Shown here: piece by piece, positions 1 through 28,351 of the stretch
How the letters are laid out: each line of letters begins with the position of its first letter
Position numbering within the stretch: the first letter of the stretch is position 1
From: Deltaproteobacteria bacterium
Lineage (GTDB): Bacteria > UBA10199 > JACPAL01 > JAHFST01
Direction: 5' to 3'
Assembly (NCBI GenBank): GCA_023265625.1
Contig: JAHFST010000003.1
Location: 37,478-101,477 of the forward strand
Length of the DNA: 64,000 nt
The notes under the pieces: generated by a model
What the model was told of the DNA's origin: nothing
The model's input: only the letters and a program-made list of their open reading frames with translations
Databases searched by the model: none
Position numbers and translations under genes: made by a program

Positions 1-3000
1 ACGGGGATGCGGTGAATGATACGTATAGCGGGCAGGGCGGAGCCGGGATTGTGTACACGAAGTTGGCGTCGGATAGTCGTGGTGATTTTACGTCGGATAA
101 CGAGGCGACGGCGTCGACGACGATCAATGGCGGGACAGCGGTGACGGCGACATCGACGACTCAGATTACGGTGGCTGATGCGAGCAGCTTTCCGTATGCG
201 GGGGTTGTTCTGATTGAGAGTGAGTTGATTGAGTATCAAGGGACAGATGGGACGCATTTAGGGACGGTGTCGATTATCAAGCGAGGCGCGTACGGGACGG
301 TATCGGCGGCGCATGCGGACACGACGACGGTGAAGCAGTATATATATCCGATTGTGGCGGCGACGACACAGAAGGCAAGCACGTCGTACAGTGCACAGAA
401 CTTCACGGTGAAGAACGGGACGAGGTACGTGATTCCGTCCGGAGATACGGTGAATGTGAGTGCGGCGACGTTTGGGAGTTCGACGATAGATGCGTCGATC
501 AAGAACAGTGGGACGTTGACGTTACCGGCGACGTTTACGATTCCGGCGAAGGTGAATTTGATTCATGTTAGCACAGGCACATTGACATCTTCATCGGGTG
601 TCTCATTGACGATCAATGGAACATTCACCCAGGATAGTTACACCACTTCTTCCACAGCATTAATTCTAGCGGCGGTGACAGTTGGCAATGGTGGTCTACT
701 GACACATTCGGATAATACGAGTTCTCTAGCCCACATTGTCAAAATGACTGTGCAAGGTTCCCTCAATATCAATAGCGGAGGATCTATTGATGTGAGTTCG
801 AAGGGATATCAGGGAGCACAGAGTGCCCAAGCGGATGGAGCAGGGACTGGGAAGGGTTTGGCTGGTAGCAGTGGCAATAGCAGCAGTGATGGTGGAGGAG
901 GTGCACATGGAGGTGCTGGCGGCACTGGAACGGATAGTGGTGGAGCAGGTGGTTCTGCCTATGACAGTTCCTCCAATCCTGCGGATGCCGGTTCGGGAGC
1001 TGGTTCAGGGTACAGTGTTAGTAGAGGGTTGGGCATGGGGGGTGATGGTGGCGGACTCATTATTCTTGTGGTGAATGATACCCTGACGGTTGGTGGGACG
1101 ATTAATGCCAATGGTCAAACCCCCAGTAAGTCATCAGGGGGTGCTACGGGTGGAGGTGGTGCTGGTGGTGGGATCAAGATTACGACCGTCACACTGGCTG
1201 GGAGTGGAAATATTACTGCCAATGGGGCGGATGGGGCTTCAAATAGTAGTGGCACACGCAATGGCGGTGGTGGTGGTGGTGGATTGGTTTATATCCTTTA
1301 CAATGGATCGAGTCATTCCGGCAGTCGGACAGCCGCGGCCTCTTCAGGTGCGGGTAGCCCAGCAGCTGGTACAGTTACCTATACAGCAAATAGCACCGGG
1401 ACTTTGACATCGACCAACGTGGAGCCCGCCTCACTCGTGGCCGGGGCGACGCCATCCAACACGATTAGTTTTACGACGGTCAATGCGATTCCGACCGGAG
1501 GCAAGATCAAGATCACTTATGGCAGCGACTTTGACGTCTCCGGCGCCAACGGTGCGACTTGTTCGACGATGGATGGTTCGTTTGCCACAGCGGTTTCTGG
1601 CCAAGTGGTCACTATCACCCGTTCCGCTGGGACCTCGCAAAGCGCGGCGACTGAAAGTTGCACGGTGGCGGGAATAAAAAATCCGGCGGTGAGCGGCTCC
1701 ACCGGGACTTACACCATCACGACGACTGATAGCTCTGATTCTACGATTGATACGGACGCGGCGGTCACCGCCGACACCATCACCGCCGCGGCCCTGGCCT
1801 CGACCAATGTGGAACCTCCGATACTGGTGGCCGGTTCCACGGGTGCGCCGGTGGTGAGTTTTACGACGACCAATCCGATTCCCATCACGGGAAAAATCAA
1901 GGTGACCTTTCCTACCGGATTTGACGTGAGCGGGGCGAATGGGGCGAGTTGTTCGACGATGGATGGATCTTTTGCGACCGGGGTTTCCGGACAAGTGGTG
2001 ACGATCACGCGCTCAGCAGGTAGTTCCCAGAGCGCGGCGGCGGAGACCTGCAGCATCGGCGGGGTTAAGACGCCGGCGGTATCCGGTTCAACGGGGACCT
2101 ATACTATTTCAACGACGAACAGCAGCGATGCGGTGATTGATACGGATGCGGCGGTCACCGCGGATACGATCACGGCCGGGGCGCTCAGTGCCACCAATGT
2201 GGAACCAGTCTCCTTGGCAGCTGGCACGACCGGTTCGGTGACGGTGAGTTTGACGACGGCCAATCCCATTACATCGGATGGCAAGATCAAAATCACGTTT
2301 GGTTCTGGTTATGATGTGAGTGGGGCAAATGGGGCGACTTGTTCGACGATGGATGGTTCGTTTGCGACCGGAGTGTCCGGCCAAGTCGTGACGATCACTC
2401 GTTCGGCAGGGAGTTCCCAGAGTGCGGCGGCCGAGAGTTGCACAATTGCCGGGATTCGAAATCCCCAGATCACCGGTTCAACCGGCACTTACACCATCAC
2501 CACGACCAACACGAGCGACACGACCATCGACACCGATGCCGCCGTGACTGCCGACACCATCACCCCCGGAGTGTTGACCTCGACCAATGTTGCCCCGGCG
2601 ACTTTGGTGGCGAAGGCGAACGGAACTGCGACCGTGACCTTCACGACGGTCAATCCGATTCCCGTGGATGGAAAAATCAAGGTGACCTTTGGCGCTGGAT
2701 TTAACGTTTCCGGAGCGACCGGGGGGACCTGTTCCACCATGGATGGTTCTTTTGCCACCTCGGTCTCAGGACAGGTGGTGACCTTGACCCGGTCCGGCGG
2801 CGGCATCCAAACGGCCGACTCCGAAAGTTGTACGATCGGCACGGTCATCAATCCGACCAGTACCGGCAGCACCGGGACTTACACCATTACCACGACTAAC
2901 AGCGCCGACACCACGATCGATCAAGACAGCGCGGTGGCGGCCGATACGATCATCAAGGGGACCTTGACCATTGCCATCGGTGGTGCCAACCCGAGTGCCT

Positions 3001-6000
3001 CGGTGGTTGCACCCACGGCCGGAAATTTGGCCCTGCTGCAATTCAGTCTCACCACCAGCGCAGAAGAGGCGATCCGGATCGACAGTATCGCGGTCACCCC
3101 GTCGGGCACGATCAATGAAACTACCGCCGCCCTGACTGAATGCGAGCTGTGGGTCGACAATGACAGCGATGGAGTGGTCGATGATGGCACCGGTGACACC
3201 GAATTGACGATCACTGGCGCCCCGAAGGCCTTTGCGGCGAACAATGGTGTTGAGACATTTACGATTACCGGCGGTTACAGCATGGCTGCTTCCTCCGCCA
3301 AGGTGTTACTCTTCTCCTGCGATTTGAATGGCAACGGGGCGGCGGCCCAGACCCTGATCATGTCCCTGGCGGCGAACACCGATGTCGGGGCGACCGGGAG
3401 CACTTCGACCCTGACCCCCAATTATTCCGGCACCCCCGCCTACACCGGCGGGACCAAGACGATCAACAGTCCCCCCGTGGTCGACGCCGGGGCGCATGTC
3501 ACCTCGATTACGGAGACGGAGAGCCTGGTCCTCAGTGCGGCCTCGACCCCTCCGACGGCCACGGATGTTAACTCGCAAACCCTGACCTATACTTGGAGCC
3601 TCACTGACAGCGCCTCGGGAAAGTGCACTTTGTCGAATACCAGCCAACTGATCGCCACGATCAACACGAGCCAGCACACCACCAACTATAACTGCACGGC
3701 GCAGCTCAGTGTGACGGATGGTGTGGTCGCCTCGGCGGTGACCGACAGCATCACCGTGACGGTGGCGGCGGACAACGACGCGCCGACAGGGGTGAGCGCC
3801 GGGTCCGATCAAAGCCTCATTTCCAACGCCGGGCCGGTGACACTGACGGCGGTTGCGGCGACTGAACCGGAAGGACAAACCTTGACCTACACCTGGAGCG
3901 AGACGGCTGATACGGGTAACGGCTGCACCTTGACCGATGCCGACACCAGCGATCGCTTGGCCAGTGTGGCCATTACGCAAACGGCGACCTTCACCTGCAC
4001 GATGCGGGTTTCCGTGTCGGACGGGACGACCGCCGTCACCGATGACATGGTCATCAATGTCACCGCCTCCAACCAGACCCCGGTGGCCAATGCCGGAGTC
4101 GATCAAACGGTCAATGACAGCGTGGGGACAGTGACCTTGAACGGTACCGGTTCCTCCGATGCCGACACCAGTCAGACCCTGACCTATGCCTGGAGCGAGA
4201 CGGCGGATGCCCAGGGTGTTTGCAGCCTAAGCGGGGCGACCTCCAGCCAACCGACGGTGACCGTCACTAACGGCGCGAGCAGCACCACGTGCACTTATAG
4301 TCTAACGGTCAACGACGGCATCATCAGTTCCAGTGCCGATTCCATGACCCTCACGATCACCGGGGACAACGACGCCCCGGTTATTTCCGGTGTGTATGTC
4401 GATGAAACGGATGCCTCGACCGGCAGCGCCGATCCGACGGGGCTCACCAGCCTGACCCCTGTCTTCTCGGTCGCCTATACGGACGGCGAGGGGAATGCCG
4501 GGAGCAAGTTCTGCATCACTGTGGAAAATGACGATGATGAAAATGAGCAAGTCTGGGTTTCGGACAACGCCGCTTGTGTCACTGGAACCTCCTTCACCGC
4601 GGCGGGGCCGAGTGGTGATTTATTGGCAAACGTGTCTAACAATTCCCGGACCCAAGATATTGATTATCAAATCGAGGGGGCTGCGGGGAATGAGACGGCG
4701 GCCGATCTGTCTTGGTGCACCAATTACACCGTTCGGATGAAAATTTTTGATACCAGCGGTTCGGTTTCCAACGAAGCGTCCACCTCATTTAAAACCGATT
4801 GTCCCCCGGTCTTGGCCGATGTCAGCACGGTGACCGCCACCGAAGGGGGGAATGCCTCGGTGACCCTGACCAACACCGATGCGGACACTGAATTTGCCAA
4901 TTTTAGTTGCACCTCCGCTTCACTCGCCGCCAAGGGGATTGCGGTGAATGGGGCTCTGACCAATAATGGCAACAACACGGCCACCTTGAGTCTGACCAGC
5001 TTGGGAAACACCACCTATGGGACCTATCCGGTGACTTGCACGGCGACCGACCCGAACAATACGGCGCTCACCTCCGGCAAGACCTTTAACCTGATTATTG
5101 CCAACAACAATCAGGCCCCGGTGCTGACCGCCATTGGTGCGAAAACGGCCTATCTGGGCGGTTCCCTGAGCTTCACCGTCTCGGCCACCGATGCCGACAC
5201 CGACGATTCCCTCACCTACCTCACCAACTCGCTGGTGCCCGGGATGAAATTCGATCCCGCCACCCACCTGTTCACTTGGACACCGATTGCCAGCCAACTG
5301 GGGGCCCATCAGGTGACCTTCATGGTGATCGACAATGCCGAAGGGAAGGGGAACAGCAGCAACGGCAATGATTCGGAGATCGTTACCATTACTGTGGCGC
5401 GCCTGATTCCCACGGTGGATGCGGGGCTCGATCAAAGTATCTTGGAAGGATATTCGACGACCCTGACCGGGGTGGCTAATGGCGGGAATGTCCTGACCTA
5501 TGCGTGGTCGATTGTCTCGGGGCCCGGGAGCCTGCTCAATAGCGCTTCCGCCCAGGCCACCTTTGTGACGACCGATGTGAGCGAGTCCCAGCAGAGCATC
5601 GTGCAGTTGGTGGTGACGAATGAATATGGGGAATTTGCGAGTGACACCCTCCCCGTCACCACCCTGGACAAGAGCAATACCCCCACCCAGACCTCGGACA
5701 AGAAGGTGATCGGCAAGATTGGCGATGATTTGATCTATGAGACCACCGAGGAAGGCAGTGATAGTGCGACGTTGAAGCTGGCGCGTGCGACGCGCGTGAA
5801 TGCGTTGGAGATCCGCGGTAAAAAAATTATTTTGGAAGGGTATCGCACGTATCGTTATCGCGTGGATGGCGACGGCCGTTTAGTGATCTCGGACCCCATG
5901 GCCGACAGTCGCCGGGGACGCGTCTATTTCTTCCAAACTGCGATTGCCGATCTCCCTGCGGTGTTTGACCTGAATGAGGCCTCCGTGCGAGATGGGAGCT

Positions 6001-7109
6001 ATGTGAGAACGGTGTCAGGCAATAGCAGCGGGGATATGTTTGGCAATTCGATCGACGTGGGCAGCACGCGCACGGTCATCAGCGCCCCGGGCGCCAATCG
6101 CGAGCGGGGACTGGCCTACGTCTACGATAATAGTCAGGAAGTGGTCTCGATCGTGTTTGGTTCTGAACAGAGAAGGATTCGCTCGGTTCGCTTGCAAAAT
6201 TATTATGCCAATGATGCGCGTCGGGACCTGTTTTTTAGCCCTGAAGTGGCGAGTGACACATCCTCTACCCAGCTTGCCGCGACGACCTCGAGCCGGGCCC
6301 TGTTTTTGTTGCGAGACGCCGAATCGTTGGTGGAGACGGTGGAACTCGATCAGACCGAACCCAATTTAGTGATCCAAAGCGGCACGGATTTTACCGCGAC
6401 CACATTTGGGGATGTGAATGGCGATGGTCGGCAGGACCTCATTGCGAGTTCCGAGGCGGCGGGCCGAGTTTACGTTTATTTCGGTTCGGACAACCCACCG
6501 GCGACTCGGACGACGGACGACGCCGATATTGAGATGGTCGCCGGGCAGGACAGCGGAGGTTTTGGGCATAGTGTGGTGGTGCAAGATGTGACCGGTGACG
6601 GGGTAGATGACGTGGTCATCGGCAGTCCCGAGGCCGGCAGCAGTGGGGCCGGAAGGATTGACGTCGTCATTGGCCGGTCGGATTGGGACAACACGGTGGA
6701 TATGGATACGGATACGAATACCTTAAAAGTGGCAGGGATGGCGGGTCAAGCCTTGGGTGGCGATCTGACCTTGGTGGATTACGATGGGGATGGCAACAGC
6801 GATATTGTCAGCAGTGATGACACCACATCGACTATCTTGAATTTGCATACCTCGACGGCCACGACGACTGGGGGCAATGAGGGCAGTGCCGGTGGCGGTG
6901 CGGCGTCTTCCGGGGCCTCGGGGGGATGTTCGTTGGTTTTGGGGGCAGGGACGGATGGGGCGCAGCATCCGCCGGAGGCGGATCAGCCTCTGGCTGAAGC
7001 GGCGCCCCTACAGGGTGGCCTGATTATTTTGTGGTGGCTGGGACGAAATTACCGAAAACGCGCAAAATCAGCCGTTCGTTTTTCCAAAAACGCGGACATG
7101 CCCTCGTGA
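1..7109 (+). CDS. Giant repetitive surface protein with FG-GAP repeats (5' truncated)
   Basis: The frame is open to the left edge, so the true start lies outside the window; at least 2365 residues are visible, counted here from a GTG at 12. In order I see: a threonine/serine-rich beta region, a glycine-rich stretch (about 270-460), four 130-residue repeats (about 464-983), PKD/cadherin-like Ig domains (about 1150-1460; 'TLTYTWS', 'NDAPV' signatures), a He_PIG-like domain (about 1700-1800), and FG-GAP/integrin-type repeats with DVNGDGRQD and DYDGDGNSD Ca-binding loops (about 2000-2275). The tail has GASGGCSL, then a short hydrophobic segment (GGLIILWW) and a basic end, resembling cysteine-containing CTERM sorting signals. 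Role inferred: cell-surface adhesin or matrix protein. The 3' end overlaps the convergent crotonase gene by 61 bp. Ligand unknown. Confidence 0.85.
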   Translation, partial: GDAVNDTYSGQGGAGIVYTKLASDSRGDFTSDNEATASTTINGGTAVTATSTTQITVADASSFPYAGVVLIESELIEYQGTDGTHLGTVSIIKRGAYGTVSAAHADTTTVKQYIYPIVAATTQKASTSYSAQNFTVKNGTRYVIPSGDTVNVSAATFGSSTIDASIKNSGTLTLPATFTIPAKVNLIHVSTGTLTSSSGVSLTINGTFTQDSYTTSSTALILAAVTVGNGGLLTHSDNTSSLAHIVKMTVQGSLNINSGGSIDVSSKGYQGAQSAQADGAGTGKGLAGSSGNSSSDGGGGAHGGAGGTGTDSGGAGGSAYDSSSNPADAGSGAGSGYSVSRGLGMGGDGGGLIILVVNDTLTVGGTINANGQTPSKSSGGATGGGGAGGGIKITTVTLAGSGNITANGADGASNSSGTRNGGGGGGGLVYILYNGSSHSGSRTAAASSGAGSPAAGTVTYTANSTGTLTSTNVEPASLVAGATPSNTISFTTVNAIPTGGKIKITYGSDFDVSGANGATCSTMDGSFATAVSGQVVTITRSAGTSQSAATESCTVAGIKNPAVSGSTGTYTITTTDSSDSTIDTDAAVTADTITAAALASTNVEPPILVAGSTGAPVVSFTTTNPIPITGKIKVTFPTGFDVSGANGASCSTMDGSFATGVSGQVVTITRSAGSSQSAAAETCSIGGVKTPAVSGSTGTYTISTTNSSDAVIDTDAAVTADTITAGALSATNVEPVSLAAGTTGSVTVSLTTANPITSDGKIKITFGSGYDVSGANGATCSTMDGSFATGVSGQVVTITRSAGSSQSAAAESCTIAGIRNPQITGSTGTYTITTTNTSDTTIDTDAAVTADTITPGVLTSTNVAPATLVAKANGTATVTFTTVNPIPVDGKIKVTFGAGFNVSGATGGTCSTMDGSFATSVSGQVVTLTRSGGGIQTADSESCTIGTVINPTSTGSTGTYTITTTNSADTTIDQDSAVAADTIIKGTLTIAIGGANPSASVVAPTAGNLALLQFSLTTSAEEAIRIDSIAVTPSGTINETTAALTECELWVDNDSDGVVDDGTGDTELTITGAPKAFAANNGVETFTITGGYSMAASSAKVLLFSCDLNGNGAAAQTLIMSLAANTDVGATGSTSTLTPNYSGTPAYTGGTKTINSPPVVDAGAHVTSITETESLVLSAASTPPTATDVNSQTLTYTWSLTDSASGKCTLSNTSQLIATINTSQHTTNYNCTAQLSVTDGVVASAVTDSITVTVAADNDAPTGVSAGSDQSLISNAGPVTLTAVAATEPEGQTLTYTWSETADTGNGCTLTDADTSDRLASVAITQTATFTCTMRVSVSDGTTAVTDDMVINVTASNQTPVANAGVDQTVNDSVGTVTLNGTGSSDADTSQTLTYAWSETADAQGVCSLSGATSSQPTVTVTNGASSTTCTYSLTVNDGIISSSADSMTLTITGDNDAPVISGVYVDETDASTGSADPTGLTSLTPVFSVAYTDGEGNAGSKFCITVENDDDENEQVWVSDNAACVTGTSFTAAGPSGDLLANVSNNSRTQDIDYQIEGAAGNETAADLSWCTNYTVRMKIFDTSGSVSNEASTSFKTDCPPVLADVSTVTATEGGNASVTLTNTDADTEFANFSCTSASLAAKGIAVNGALTNNGNNTATLSLTSLGNTTYGTYPVTCTATDPNNTALTSGKTFNLIIANNNQAPVLTAIGAKTAYLGGSLSFTVSATDADTDDSLTYLTNSLVPGMKFDPATHLFTWTPIASQLGAHQVTFMVIDNAEGKGNSSNGNDSEIVTITVARLIPTVDAGLDQSILEGYSTTLTGVANGGNVLTYAWSIVSGPGSLLNSASAQATFVTTDVSESQQSIVQLVVTNEYGEFASDTLPVTTLDKSNTPTQTSDKKVIGKIGDDLIYETTEEGSDSATLKLARATRVNALEIRGKKIILEGYRTYRYRVDGDGRLVISDPMADSRRGRVYFFQTAIADLPAVFDLNEASVRDGSYVRTVSGNSSGDMFGNSIDVGSTRTVISAPGANRERGLAYVYDNSQEVVSIVFGSEQRRIRSVRLQNYYANDARRDLFFSPEVASDTSSTQLAATTSSRALFLLRDAESLVETVELDQTEPNLVIQSGTDFTATTFGDVNGDGRQDLIASSEAAGRVYVYFGSDNPPATRTTDDADIEMVAGQDSGGFGHSVVVQDVTGDGVDDVVIGSPEAGSSGAGRIDVVIGRSDWDNTVDMDTDTNTLKVAGMAGQALGGDLTLVDYDGDGNSDIVSSDDTTSTILNLHTSTATTTGGNEGSAGGGAASSGASGGCSLVLGAGTDGAQHPPEADQPLAEAAPLQGGLIILWWLGRNYRKRAKSAVRFSKNADMPS
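1401..2960 (+). repeat. Four in-frame 390-bp tandem repeats inside the giant surface gene
   Basis: Repeat units begin at 1401, 1791, 2181 and 2571, an exact 390-bp period with no indels. Each encodes a 130-residue domain starting TSTNVEP or a variant and containing CSTMDGSFAT, SGQVVT and STGTYTI. Synonymous divergence between units argues against an assembly artefact. Confidence 0.95.
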
Positions 7110-23656: not shown

Positions 23657-23923
23657 ATGAAAAATAAATCTTCAGTGAAGCGTTTCAAAACGACCGAGGA
23701 GATGGATGAGTACCTTGAGAATAACGATTTAGGCGATCTCCTCAGGGGTAAAGGGGTCCTCAAAAGAGGCATTCTCAAAAAAATCAATCTAGATCTTCCG
23801 GCAACGGTCGTGGACAAGGTGGACCAAATTGCGAATAAAATCGGGATCGCCAGACAGCCGCTCTTGAAGATGTGGATTCATGAACGATTGCAGAAAGAAG
23901 AGTCTGCTAGCACTTCCTCTTAA
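23657..23923 (+). CDS. Solitary BrnA/CopG-like antitoxin
   Basis: 88 residues. The C-terminal half, KKINLDLPATVVDKVDQIAN then RQPLLKMWIHERL, is a ribbon-helix-helix domain very like that of the BrnA-type antitoxin at 57058-57372 (ISIRLPIYVLDKLKQVS / LIRLWVTEKL). The N-terminal half is charged. No toxin gene lies on either side, so it is either a solitary regulator or the remainder of a broken locus. The 128 bp upstream are AT-rich and contain a weak version of the orphan promoter motif at 23561-23590 with 15-nt spacing. Confidence 0.75.
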   Translation: MKNKSSVKRFKTTEEMDEYLENNDLGDLLRGKGVLKRGILKKINLDLPATVVDKVDQIANKIGIARQPLLKMWIHERLQKEESASTSS

Positions 23924-23986: not shown

Positions 23987-24014
23987 AGCAACAATTATCT
24001 CCGCGTGCCGAGAA
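23987..24014 (+). promoter_or_regulatory. Orphan-regulon promoter motif for the CarD-like fusion gene
   Basis: AGCAACAATT and GCCGAGAA at the standard 13-nt spacing. The ATG at 24024 lies 9 nt after the -10 and has no Shine-Dalgarno, consistent with a leaderless mRNA. Confidence 0.5.
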
Positions 24015-24023
24015 TAACCGATC

Positions 24024-26699
24024 ATGGGTTCATTGACGAGTAACAGAAGTGTTTTGGGGACTTTGTCCCATCCGGCGGCCTGGGAAAGCCTTGGTGCGCT
24101 GTTTGCCGGTGTTTGTAATCCGGTTTCCGGATCGGCGATCGAGGTGCCGTGGGAACGGATGCAACCGTTTGTGGCCCGTTTTTTGGAGATTCGGCCGCGT
24201 TGGGGTGCGGCCGTGGATCGTTGGAGAGAGGCCGTTCCGGATCCGGAGAGACTGACATTCCTTTTTGCCGAGTTATGGGAGGTTTTGGACGACCAGGACC
24301 TCCTGACCGCCGAATCGAACGTCATGGAGCAGTCATGCGTCCTTTTTTTGGCGGATCTATCTGCAGAACTTCGTGAACCGATGGTCGGTCAGCAGGTTTT
24401 CGTTCAACCTTCCACGGCGGATTTCTTGAAAAAGAATGTTTGTTTGGCCGTGAGTTATCTCAATTCGTTGCGAGGTTGGCTGGGTGATCCGGAACTGAGC
24501 GCGTCTCTACCCAAGGGGTATCAAGTTTTGACCTACCAGTTGCAGGAGTTGTTGGAGGCGGTTGCGGTGATGCCTGCGGCTTATCGGGGATTTTTTTATT
24601 TTGGCGTCTGTGTGTTGGGTCAATGGCATCCGGAATCGCTGACAAATTTTTTGGAAACATTCAACCTAACCAGGGAAACAGGGTTTCGGCTGATCCCTTT
24701 TGAGGATGATCCGACCGGTGTTGGACGTTTGCTCGTTTCCCCGCAAGAGACCTGGCGCGAGATTTATCGGGCGACTCATGGTTTGTGTCAAGATCTGGCC
24801 ATCGGCGTGTTTGATCAAGATATCCTGGTCGCTTCTCATCGGCCGGTCTTGGCTGATTTATCTTCGGCGTTGGGGGTTGTCCTGCAAAGTTTTCCGGAAC
24901 TGAGGGGGGCGGTGGAGGTGTTGCAACGTTTTGCCCGCTCTCAATCTCAAGGGGGCGTTTTGATCCCTTTGCCGCATTTGCGGGCGGCGGGCGCGGCGGT
25001 GCGGGACAGGTTTGCCGGCCGGTTGGGCCCCGCCTGGTGCCGTGCGTTGAACCAAGCCTTGGAAGAGGGGTCCGGCGCCGGTGTATGGCCGGCGGAGTGC
25101 CCCAAGCCTTCGGAGATTCAAAGGGCTTATCGCTCCTTTCCGGAATCGCTCCAGAACGATTTGGAGCGTGCGGCCGGGAAGAACAAGGAGCGATCGGGAG
25201 CCTTCCGGGAAGCCGACGTGGATAAGAGCCCTCTGCTCCTGAGGGCGGCTGCAAAAACGGTGATGGAGGAGATATTTCAAAAGGGAGGCGCCGCATTAAT
25301 CATCCTCCGTCCGTTGTTCGACTGGTTGGCGACGACGCCCCAAGGTTATTTTAACAGCATTCTGGTCGCTTGGAGGAGGGATCCCTCTTTGCGGATGTAT
25401 GGCAGTGTGGTGACGATGCGCGGGTTGCTCCAGGTGGTCAATGTCGCCTGCTCCACTCATTACACCCTGGAATTAGCCGGGGTGAGGCCCCACCGGGTGG
25501 TATGTCTGCGGGTCCGTCCTCCCGATTCACCTGAGGATGTTCAGAACAGGAATCGATTTCAAACAATCGTTCCCGACCCCGCGTTGCGAAAAGTGATATT
25601 CGAGGCCTCCGGTCTTGGCGAGACGGAGTTGCTTCGTCAGGAGAACCTCCCCGTCGCCTTGGCGCGTGCCCTGGCGACCTTGTCCCTTCCCAGTGTGGAA
25701 GCAGGGGACGAATCGAAACGACTCGGAGCTTGTGCGGCGATCTTGGAGTTGTTCCAGGAACCCGATCCTCTTCTCCCCACTGCCGCCTTTTTCCGTGCCC
25801 GTTTGGTGGCACAGGGGATGTCGCGCAACTCTTTGGTGGGGCTCTTGAGCCGGATCAAGTTACATTTGGGGATTGATTACCGGTACTCGGTCAGGAAAGG
25901 TGTAGTCCGTGTGTCACCGTTGGAGCGAGAAGTTCCCCCGCAGGATGAGCCCCTGATGGCTATTGAGGAAACGGTTGCAACGGGTTATTCGATCGGTGTG
26001 CCGATCACCGCTCCGTCCATGGCCTTTACGGTGGGAGATATTACGGTATCGGCGGATGCCTTGGGGGAAGGGGGACGTCGCTTTATTCAGGGCCCCGGGA
26101 CCGAAATGGTCCAGGCAGAGGATGCGCAAGAGAGAGATGAAACAGCGCAGTTGCCACTCCCGCCTGGGTCGCCTGCCCCGTCTTTAGGATCTACGACTTA
26201 CGTCCATGGACAGCAGGTTGCAGTGGCCGGTTGCGGTGTGGGGACGGTTCTGAGCATTGAGACAATAACGGCTTCCTCTGGGACCGGCATTTTTTTGAGG
26301 GTGAAGGTGCCCCGAACTCCGAAACTTGTCCCAATCAACTCGCCGAATATCCGCAGCCTGGAATCTGAAGAGGGGGTGGCCGGTGCGTATCGGGAGTTGG
26401 ATCAGCCGGTCCCAAAGTTGCGCCTGCCTGAAGAGGGAGTAGCGGAATGGAAAACGAGAATGGCGCGGCGTTGGCAATCCGCCAGAAATCTTAAGGAAGT
26501 GGCCGCCCTGGTGCGTGACTTGAGTGCCTGGTATCAAGAAGCGCGGAAGAGGGGAAAAGGCGTGGATGTGCGTGTCAAAGAAATCCTGCAAGGCGTCGCC
26601 CGGCACTTGATCGACGAGGTTGTCGCTGTGAGCGGGAAAGAGGCCGCGTCTGTACGAGGGGAGATCGAAACGGCGCTGGGTCGTTCTGTCGGGTTATAG
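24024..26699 (+). CDS. 891-aa unassigned protein ending in a CarD/CdnL-like domain
   Basis: The first about 650 residues are helical and match no family I know. A low-complexity acidic/proline linker follows (about 690-720). Residues about 724-885 look like CarD/CdnL: a Tudor-like beta domain (YVHGQQVAVAGCGVGTVLSI, then LVPINSPNIRSLESEE, matching 'GVGxVxxI', 'VPxxxxxxLRxLxSxEE'), a linker with 'WKTRMARRWQSARN', and a helical part containing EVAALVRDLSAWY, as in 'ELAEVVRDL'. In CarD/CdnL/TRCF-RID proteins this beta domain binds the RNA polymerase beta subunit and stabilises open complexes. Here it would tether a large unknown body to RNA polymerase. Followed 65 nt later by another unassigned gene with its own motif. 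CarD similarity is my own reading. Confidence 0.75.
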   Translation: MGSLTSNRSVLGTLSHPAAWESLGALFAGVCNPVSGSAIEVPWERMQPFVARFLEIRPRWGAAVDRWREAVPDPERLTFLFAELWEVLDDQDLLTAESNVMEQSCVLFLADLSAELREPMVGQQVFVQPSTADFLKKNVCLAVSYLNSLRGWLGDPELSASLPKGYQVLTYQLQELLEAVAVMPAAYRGFFYFGVCVLGQWHPESLTNFLETFNLTRETGFRLIPFEDDPTGVGRLLVSPQETWREIYRATHGLCQDLAIGVFDQDILVASHRPVLADLSSALGVVLQSFPELRGAVEVLQRFARSQSQGGVLIPLPHLRAAGAAVRDRFAGRLGPAWCRALNQALEEGSGAGVWPAECPKPSEIQRAYRSFPESLQNDLERAAGKNKERSGAFREADVDKSPLLLRAAAKTVMEEIFQKGGAALIILRPLFDWLATTPQGYFNSILVAWRRDPSLRMYGSVVTMRGLLQVVNVACSTHYTLELAGVRPHRVVCLRVRPPDSPEDVQNRNRFQTIVPDPALRKVIFEASGLGETELLRQENLPVALARALATLSLPSVEAGDESKRLGACAAILELFQEPDPLLPTAAFFRARLVAQGMSRNSLVGLLSRIKLHLGIDYRYSVRKGVVRVSPLEREVPPQDEPLMAIEETVATGYSIGVPITAPSMAFTVGDITVSADALGEGGRRFIQGPGTEMVQAEDAQERDETAQLPLPPGSPAPSLGSTTYVHGQQVAVAGCGVGTVLSIETITASSGTGIFLRVKVPRTPKLVPINSPNIRSLESEEGVAGAYRELDQPVPKLRLPEEGVAEWKTRMARRWQSARNLKEVAALVRDLSAWYQEARKRGKGVDVRVKEILQGVARHLIDEVVAVSGKEAASVRGEIETALGRSVGL

Positions 26700-26727: not shown

Positions 26728-26756
26728 CACAACTTTTTCCAACAGCGTGCCGATAG
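26728..26756 (+). promoter_or_regulatory. Orphan-regulon promoter motif for the 528-aa gene
   Basis: CACAACTTTT and GCCGATAG with 14 nt between the CAACT core and the -10. The ATG at 26765 is 8 nt downstream of the -10, close to the predicted transcript start. Confidence 0.6.
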
Positions 26757-26764
26757 CGATAGTC

Positions 26765-28351
26765 ATGAGCGCCAGACTCATTATTGATGTTGCCGGACCG
26801 GTGTTAGGCCTCTTGAGTCGGGCCTTGTACCACGATGAGCCTCGTTTGAGGGGGGGCTATCTTTTGCCGCAGGCGGGGGAAGCGGATCAGGCCTGGCAGG
26901 CGGGGGTGAAATATCTGACGGCGTTGCGCGAGGCGGTCCCGGAAGGGCATGCCGGGGATCTACGAGCTCTGGAGTTGCTCGTGCGTGGCCGCCTGGCGCG
27001 CCTGGTGTCCGGGCGTTGGATCAATGCCTCGATTCCTCAGGAGGATAGGAGAGTCGACCTCTATGCCGCGAAGGTGGGAGCTTTTGAGGAGAAGGCGCAT
27101 CTGCTTGTAGCGGCCACTCAAAATAGTATGGCTTTGCAACGACATAGCGCTTTTTCTAAACCTCCTGAGCTTGATTTGGCCGATCATAAAATTCTCCGCA
27201 AGAGGGCCAGGGAATTCGCCCAGGCGGACACCCTCGAGGATCTGGATGCGCGCTTGTTCCGGCGGGGATTGCCCGAGTATGGACAGGGCTACTTTAATGG
27301 AAAATATGATTTTGTGGATCTCCCAGAAGTGGTCCAGGCCAAGGTGTGGGAGCTGTCCCTGGTCTACAGCAGTTTTTTGGAGACCGAGTTCTTCGCCCCA
27401 ATTCCCTATGCGATGATCCAATCCCACCCGCGGATCTTTCCCGTGCCGCCGCCCACCGTTTATCATGAGTTTGTCAGCCTGGCCAAGGAGCTGTTTGGCG
27501 GTCAGGTGGATATGAAGACCGCCTATTATTTTTTTAAATGGCTGATCCCGGCACTCCAAGAGGCGCGTACCCTTGGCGAAATGAAATTCATCTTCAATGG
27601 GCGTACCAAGTTCTACGAAGATCGCCTGCCATGGCCCCCGGGGGTGAAGGCCAATTTTATGGGTTCTTTGAGCCATTTGGAAGATTTACTGGGTGCCGGT
27701 TTTGTCACACCGCATGACCTGAATGGGGTCCCGACCATTTTTGGATTACGTCGTCGTGCCGCCGAGATCCTCCATCTTTCCTATCCGGCGCCTTCGGAGT
27801 CGGCGAGAGATTTGGCTGCGGAACAGGGCCATTTGCAAAGGGAGCTGGCGATGTGCCAGGAGGCGTTGGGCGTGGAAAAACTCATTGCCCGTGTCGTGGA
27901 ACCCTGGGTGAGTGGGTCGTTAGACGGGAAACTTTTATATCGCGTGAGATCCTTGCGCAACGACGTACGGGAAAAATCTCGGTTGGAAGATTGGTGCCGC
28001 GACATCCCCGTCTGGATCAGGATGCCTGAAGACCCATGGCGGCAGGTTCGCTCCCGGGCGATTGCCGAAGTGACGACGGCGGAAGCGGCCCTGGAGAAAT
28101 TTCAAACAGACCTCGCGCGTGCCGAGCGGTGCGTGCCGTTCCGTATGAAATTTTGGTATGATCGGAAACAAATCTTGGACCAGGGGCTCCGTGAGGCCAG
28201 GCGTTATATGGATCTTATCAGAGACGTGGAATCGTTGCGCCATCTGCCGAAGGTGCCGCCGGGTCAAACGGATATCGAGGTTCGGTTGCAAGCTGAATTG
28301 CGCAAGGTGCAGGTGCATCTTGATTTCCTAGTGGCAAGCCTGAATGTCTGA
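26765..28351 (+). CDS. Unassigned helical protein (528 aa)
   Basis: Not recognised. An in-frame TTG at 26705 lies upstream of the promoter-like motif, so the ATG at 26765 (MSARLIIDVAGPVLG) is preferred. The protein is largely helical; the C-terminal half has heptad-like stretches typical of coiled coils (AEQGHLQRELAMCQEALGVE, and the final EVRLQAELRKVQVHLDFLV). A mid-region, FFAPIPYAMIQSHPRIFPVP, is proline-rich. There is no signal peptide. It follows the CarD-like fusion gene. Function unknown. Confidence 0.7.
   Translation: MSARLIIDVAGPVLGLLSRALYHDEPRLRGGYLLPQAGEADQAWQAGVKYLTALREAVPEGHAGDLRALELLVRGRLARLVSGRWINASIPQEDRRVDLYAAKVGAFEEKAHLLVAATQNSMALQRHSAFSKPPELDLADHKILRKRAREFAQADTLEDLDARLFRRGLPEYGQGYFNGKYDFVDLPEVVQAKVWELSLVYSSFLETEFFAPIPYAMIQSHPRIFPVPPPTVYHEFVSLAKELFGGQVDMKTAYYFFKWLIPALQEARTLGEMKFIFNGRTKFYEDRLPWPPGVKANFMGSLSHLEDLLGAGFVTPHDLNGVPTIFGLRRRAAEILHLSYPAPSESARDLAAEQGHLQRELAMCQEALGVEKLIARVVEPWVSGSLDGKLLYRVRSLRNDVREKSRLEDWCRDIPVWIRMPEDPWRQVRSRAIAEVTTAEAALEKFQTDLARAERCVPFRMKFWYDRKQILDQGLREARRYMDLIRDVESLRHLPKVPPGQTDIEVRLQAELRKVQVHLDFLVASLNV

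Follow-up and report, generated by a model that had tools for sequence, protein, structure and literature searches.

In a window of 64,000 nucleotides (the whole stretch of DNA that was analysed), we identified a gene for an 891-residue protein whose C-terminus, at residues ~724-885, is very likely a divergent but complete CarD/CdnL domain. This module is very likely part of a real fusion to a partner of ~700 residues. Ordinarily, CarD is a small housekeeping protein with the task of stabilising open promoters. From sequence and structural models we propose, with a probability of about 0.6, that the 891-residue protein is a lineage-specific, large accessory protein or regulator tethered to RNA polymerase (RNAP).

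A divergent CarD/CdnL domain at the end of a large protein

The reading frame was confirmed on the plus strand, and its base composition by codon position, including GC, is coding-like. The gene and the parts of its product are as follows.

24024..26699, +: open frame of the gene for the 891-residue CarD-fusion protein
24024..24779, +: N-terminal segment, residues 1-252; by eye a putative degenerate copy of the repeat
24780..25946, +: helical repeat domain, residues 253-641; common to paralogues on contigs C20 (two copies), C36 and C28
25947..26192, +: low-complexity acidic linker, residues 642-723, with no domain match
26193..26678, +: CarD/CdnL domain, residues 724-885, with a Tudor-like RID (731-778) and a helical C-terminal part (784-885)
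26292..26333, +: F757, L768 and P770, aligned by eye with M. xanthus CdnL F36, M49 and P51
26448..26450, +: W809, counterpart by alignment of the minor-groove wedge Trp in CarD (Tth W86, Mtb W85, M. xanthus W88)

The CarD domain ends at residue 885 of 891, and the linker carries a net charge of -9 over residues 642-715. Searches of Pfam, NCBIfam, PHROGs and, with phmmer, PDB sequences assigned the protein to no family; phmmer did not find CarD, and an HMMER profile built from 30 CdnLs of the class gave no significant match. With the C-terminal piece, Pfam CarD_C scored E=0.042 (14.3 bits against a cut-off of 23.1). Neither CarD_TRCF_RID nor CarD_C reached its curated cut-off in the 891-residue protein, a cut-off that is a database threshold and not a biological feature of the CarD_CdnL_TRCF family; the paralogue on C36 alone passes it (CarD_TRCF_RID, 23.5 against 23).

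More sensitive comparisons revealed the relationship. BLASTP aligned residues 721-882 with residues 1-159 of the genome's own 164-residue CdnL at E=6.5e-4 to 4e-3, values computed in a tiny database of few proteins. Against the alignment of class CdnLs, hhalign gave E=7.4e-4 over 143 collinear columns; none of 446 controls (400 shuffles, the reversed sequence, and natural stretches from the same protein family and its neighbour) matched this score or length, the longest control alignment having 20 columns. The three paralogous C-termini, taken without any CdnL, matched the CdnL alignment with 98% probability in a profile-profile comparison, and when their profile was searched against PDB sequences, CarD/CdnL entries came out on top (best E=4e-17). 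A leave-one-out profile of CdnL and two paralogues gave the domain of the 891-residue protein 9.1 bits, against 7.8 for the best of 2000 shuffles. Because this margin is slim and the CdnL HMMER profile misses the domain, we relied on structure and on profile-profile comparison with controls. The CarD part was placed wrongly in full-length multiple alignments, and the domains were therefore aligned one by one. The values E=1e-58 and E=1e-181 are scores of sequences that built the respective profiles and are not evidence. The domain has about 20-25% identity to CdnL, and its beta-hairpin region is shortened.

An AlphaFold (AF2) model of residues 715-891, computed from an alignment of two paralogous C-termini only, with CdnL rows excluded, had a mean pLDDT of 73 (51-63 for the other four models). 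It contains five predicted strands (731-734, 738-750, 753-761, 766-770 and 776-778), which form the Tudor-like beta domain (RID) of the CarD_CdnL_TRCF family, followed by five predicted helices within 784-885. These helices, together with the alignment to the CdnL C-terminus, correspond to the five-helix C-terminal domain of CarD/CdnL, which Mfd does not have. Foldseek retrieved Thermus CarD first (4l5g, E=5e-8), then CarD on RNAP beta1 or in initiation complexes and M. xanthus CdnL, and then the Tudor domains of Mfd and UvrD. The TM-scores of about 0.5 may reflect a variable angle between the two halves of the domain.

Thus, the CarD sequence order that the original prediction had read at residues ~724-885 is borne out: the segments it quoted are present, profile, paralogue and model evidence agree, and the profile and structure comparisons it had proposed both match CarD/CdnL. 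Its "W-rich linker" was loosely worded, W809 being the informative Trp.

W809 occupies the conserved wedge position in the hhalign alignment and lies close to the N-terminus of the predicted helix 805-819. The wedge Trp is kept in >95% of CarD proteins and its replacement impairs Thermus CarD (PMC4593161); in M. xanthus CdnL, W88A had little effect (PMC4182748). F36, M49 and P51 of M. xanthus CdnL are tested RNAP-beta contact residues (PMC4182748). In an alignment made by eye only, F757 and P770 are identical to F36 and P51, and L768 replaces M49. The R90/R91/R93 patch is retained in register only in part. In the alignment of the CarD copies, the P51 equivalent is retained in all three, and two paralogues have a Tyr near the wedge Trp position.

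The repeat domain and its paralogues

The repeat domain spans ~390 residues, and the two halves of one repeat are weakly similar. It belongs to no Pfam family, and its AF2 model, of moderate confidence (pLDDT 69.7), matched no PDB fold by Foldseek. No DNA-binding signature or fold was found for the N-terminal domain by Foldseek, or by Pfam on sub-segments. A winged-helix reading of the repeat, which AF2 renders as three helices and a hairpin, was likewise unsupported by either search, and the repeat profile's matches to Cullin-2 (E=0.06) were taken as chance. In residues 1-252, a profile did not detect the repeat and no significant matches were obtained.

The genome (2.93 Mb, 37 contigs) encodes a stand-alone CdnL of 164 residues on C3 and Mfd on C16, with a third CarD match on C36. 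The records nearest to this CdnL come from uncultured 'Deltaproteobacteria' MAGs, one of those listed carrying the label UBA10199, and the lineage may belong to that candidate phylum. Since the stand-alone CdnL is retained, the fusion is an additional protein, much as M. xanthus has both CarD and CdnL (PMC4182748). With its N-terminal part, the 891-residue protein matches a 1088-residue protein on C20 (E about 1e-14; about 1e-17 for the repeat domain compared pairwise), which has the same order, a repeat domain followed by a C-terminal CarD domain (E=1.5e-5 with an independent CdnL profile). On C36, a frame that encodes the same N-terminal domain is immediately followed by a CarD domain (E=8e-9 with the class CdnL HMMER profile). 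The repeat and CarD parts are read in different frames, and no start codon (ATG, GTG or TTG) precedes the first strand of the CarD part (L003 524-2034); therefore the locus reads as one broken gene; this third copy is either a broken gene or an assembly error. The search for the same fusion that had been suggested thus yielded one further intact copy and one frame-broken copy, and the paralogues keep the full length of the CarD domain. A 1310-residue paralogue on C28 contains the repeats (L017 3757-7689), and CarD was not detected in it. By eye, its C-terminus (FQVGDRVRREDG...) resembles a short SH3/Tudor-type end in place of CarD, with no database match.

None of 384 other genomes, 45 of them from the same class, contains the repeat domain, and searches of phages, plasmids, viral contigs and genome contigs yielded no relatives. 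Exactly one match, the stand-alone CdnL, was present in 41 of the 45 other class genomes. In a CarD_C scan of 371 genomes, frames among the matches listed measured 92-447 residues, although a domain as divergent as that of the 891-residue protein would escape CarD_C. The two longest frames among the matches listed (L171 and L172) resemble M. xanthus CarD, with the CarD domain first and disordered tails that are AT-hook or Lys/Pro/Ala-rich. A C-terminal CarD domain on a partner of ~700 residues, which the original prediction had called unfamiliar, was seen in no other genome sampled. Mfd, which it gave as the other known fusion, stands, and M. xanthus CarD (CarD with an HMGA-like tail) should be added to that list.

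A class-wide FliA-like promoter motif and a putative orphan regulon

Motifs with the geometry of a FliA/sigma28 promoter precede the fusion gene and the gene that follows it.

23988..24014, +: FliA/sigma28-geometry promoter GCAACAATTATCTCCGCGTGCCGAGAA (GCAAC-N14-GCCGAGAA), one mismatch to the motif
26729..26756, +: similar promoter-like motif with a spacing of 15, 8 nt before the ATG (26765) of the next gene
26765-28351, +: orphan gene of 528 residues after the CarD fusion, no match in Pfam, NCBIfam or PHROGs

The motif GCAAC-N14-GCCGAnAA ends 9 nt before the ATG of the 891-residue gene, whose transcript, judged from this spacing, is probably leaderless. FliA/sigma28 promoters have the form TAAAGTTT-N11-GCCGATAA. 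The site at 23988-24014 shares their spacing within a 27-base geometry and an GCCGATAA-type -10 element; they differ in the -35 element, which is TAAAGTTT there and GCAACTTT here (GCAACTTT-N11-GCCGATAA). With at most one mismatch allowed, the genome has 92 sites for the pattern GCAACNNTN11GYCGAWAR and 5 for the reversed pattern, used as a control; for the TAAA form, the one-mismatch sites number 6, and those of its control 2. Each of the 25 class genomes tested had exact matches, 2-46 per genome. In the loci compared (L051-L080), start codons often lie 6-12 nt past the motif, which implies leaderless mRNAs; these start codons were chosen by longest frame, so the spacing is a description and not a test. 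Few of 26 sampled products behind the motif match Pfam. The motif is in the same position in the C20 and C28 paralogues.

The promoter of the fusion gene thus belongs to a shared, strongly enriched motif, in line with the original prediction that the protein is part of an orphan regulon. Since the motif is class-wide and the fusion family was found in one genome only, the protein would be a private member of a wider regulon, not the regulator that defines it.

The genome also encodes two FliA/WhiG-like sigma factors (G000:C21:59011-59688 and G000:C10:162816-163451; 231 and 147 bits). Either could be a candidate reader of the GCAAC-type promoter.

Comparison with known CarD-type proteins

The whole-domain fold (Tudor-like RID and helical C-terminal domain), the collinear sequence, the wedge Trp and, by alignment, the Phe and Pro at RNAP-contact positions are common to the 891-residue protein and to Thermus and Mycobacterium CarD and M. 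xanthus CdnL. Those proteins stand alone at about 160 residues, whereas here the domain is the C-terminus of an 891-residue protein and is far more divergent than the CdnLs of the class.

In M. xanthus CarD, which works at promoters of alternative sigma factors, a CarD domain is fused to a DNA-binding tail. Like the 891-residue protein, it combines a CarD domain with an extra part and has CdnL alongside; it is linked to alternative sigma factors, and the 891-residue gene has a FliA-like promoter. However, in M. xanthus CarD the CarD domain is N-terminal and the tail is HMGA-like, with AT-hooks, disordered and DNA-binding, whereas in the 891-residue protein the CarD domain is C-terminal and its partner is a large folded helical repeat domain. 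The AT-hook motif RGRP, which marks the tail of the M. xanthus CarD subfamily, was not found in the 891-residue protein.

Mfd/TRCF and UvrD/PcrA also carry a Tudor-like RNAP-binding module on a large protein, at the C-terminus in the case of UvrD. Both have the Tudor part only, together with a helicase, whereas the 891-residue protein has a full CarD domain and no helicase.

A putative RNAP-tethered regulator

In the model that we favour, the Tudor-like half would dock on the RNAP beta1 lobe, and the flexible acidic linker would allow the helical repeats at the N-terminus to contact DNA or a partner protein close to the promoter, which would provide the CarD module with a target or a signal. 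The gene would probably be transcribed into a leaderless mRNA with a sigma factor of the FliA family, and the protein would thus be made together with that regulon. In favour of this model are the identity of the domain by sequence and by fold, the same domain order in the paralogues, the retention of W809, F757 and P770 by alignment, the separate CdnL and the promoter motif. By analogy, this logic is close to that of M. xanthus CarD, with the order reversed and a structured partner. Several observations count against this role: the domain is highly divergent, M49 is replaced by Leu, the basic patch is partial and the paralogues have Tyr at the wedge, a substitution that impairs Thermus CarD; moreover, the N-terminal part has no recognized fold or DNA-binding signature, and the family was found in one genome only.

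Some of these same features suit a different, rather unlikely, mode of action, in which the CarD module docks on RNAP as an antagonist or competitor, displacing CdnL from the beta1 lobe or blocking open-complex stabilisation, and so re-programs RNAP. The retained CdnL would occupy the same site, the wedge Trp is aligned with Tyr in two paralogues and the basic patch of the 891-residue protein is altered; however, W809 is kept in the latter. Slightly less likely still, the CarD fold may have been kept while RNAP binding was lost, for instance in a scaffold or in a fast-evolving family under weak constraint. Very low sequence conservation, one frame-broken paralogue and another with repeats in which CarD was not detected would fit such a loss, but by alignment the 891-residue protein keeps the F36 and P51 equivalents, the latter shared by all three copies, and the paralogues preserve the full domain length. 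A resemblance to CarD that arose by chance or as an artefact of the model is very improbable: Pfam, NCBIfam, phmmer and the CdnL HMMER profile miss the domain in the 891-residue protein alone, but hhalign with its controls, profile retrieval from the PDB, AlphaFold with Foldseek, and significant CarD matches at the same place in the paralogues all argue against it.

An extension of the RNAP-tethered role, which we regard as speculative, is that the paralogues are giant RNAP-docking cofactors expressed from, and acting on, a FliA-type regulon of leaderless orphan genes, that is, an alternative sigma factor with dedicated open-complex cofactors. CarD-tipped proteins five to seven times larger than CarD, with a repeat domain that matched no PDB fold, would represent a new way to hang a regulator on RNA polymerase, and our comparisons suggest that this shape of putative regulator, a large protein ending in CarD, has not been described before. 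The family lies downstream of promoters of a FliA-like class that is widespread and little studied. Should RNAP docking prove true, CarD would have been re-used as a recruitment tag, and the family would give an entry point to the control of many orphan genes in an uncultured lineage.

Neighbouring genes

Toxin-antitoxin-like genes lie directly upstream in three of the four family members. They comprise a CopG/BrnA-type antitoxin (window 23657-23923), a Phd and PIN pair, and a PIN gene followed by a small ORF; those upstream of paralogues are at L007 5849-6570 and L017 7753-8432. Elsewhere in the window, 12-7109 encodes a 2365-residue protein with PKD and FG-GAP domains, which is probably secreted or exposed at the surface.
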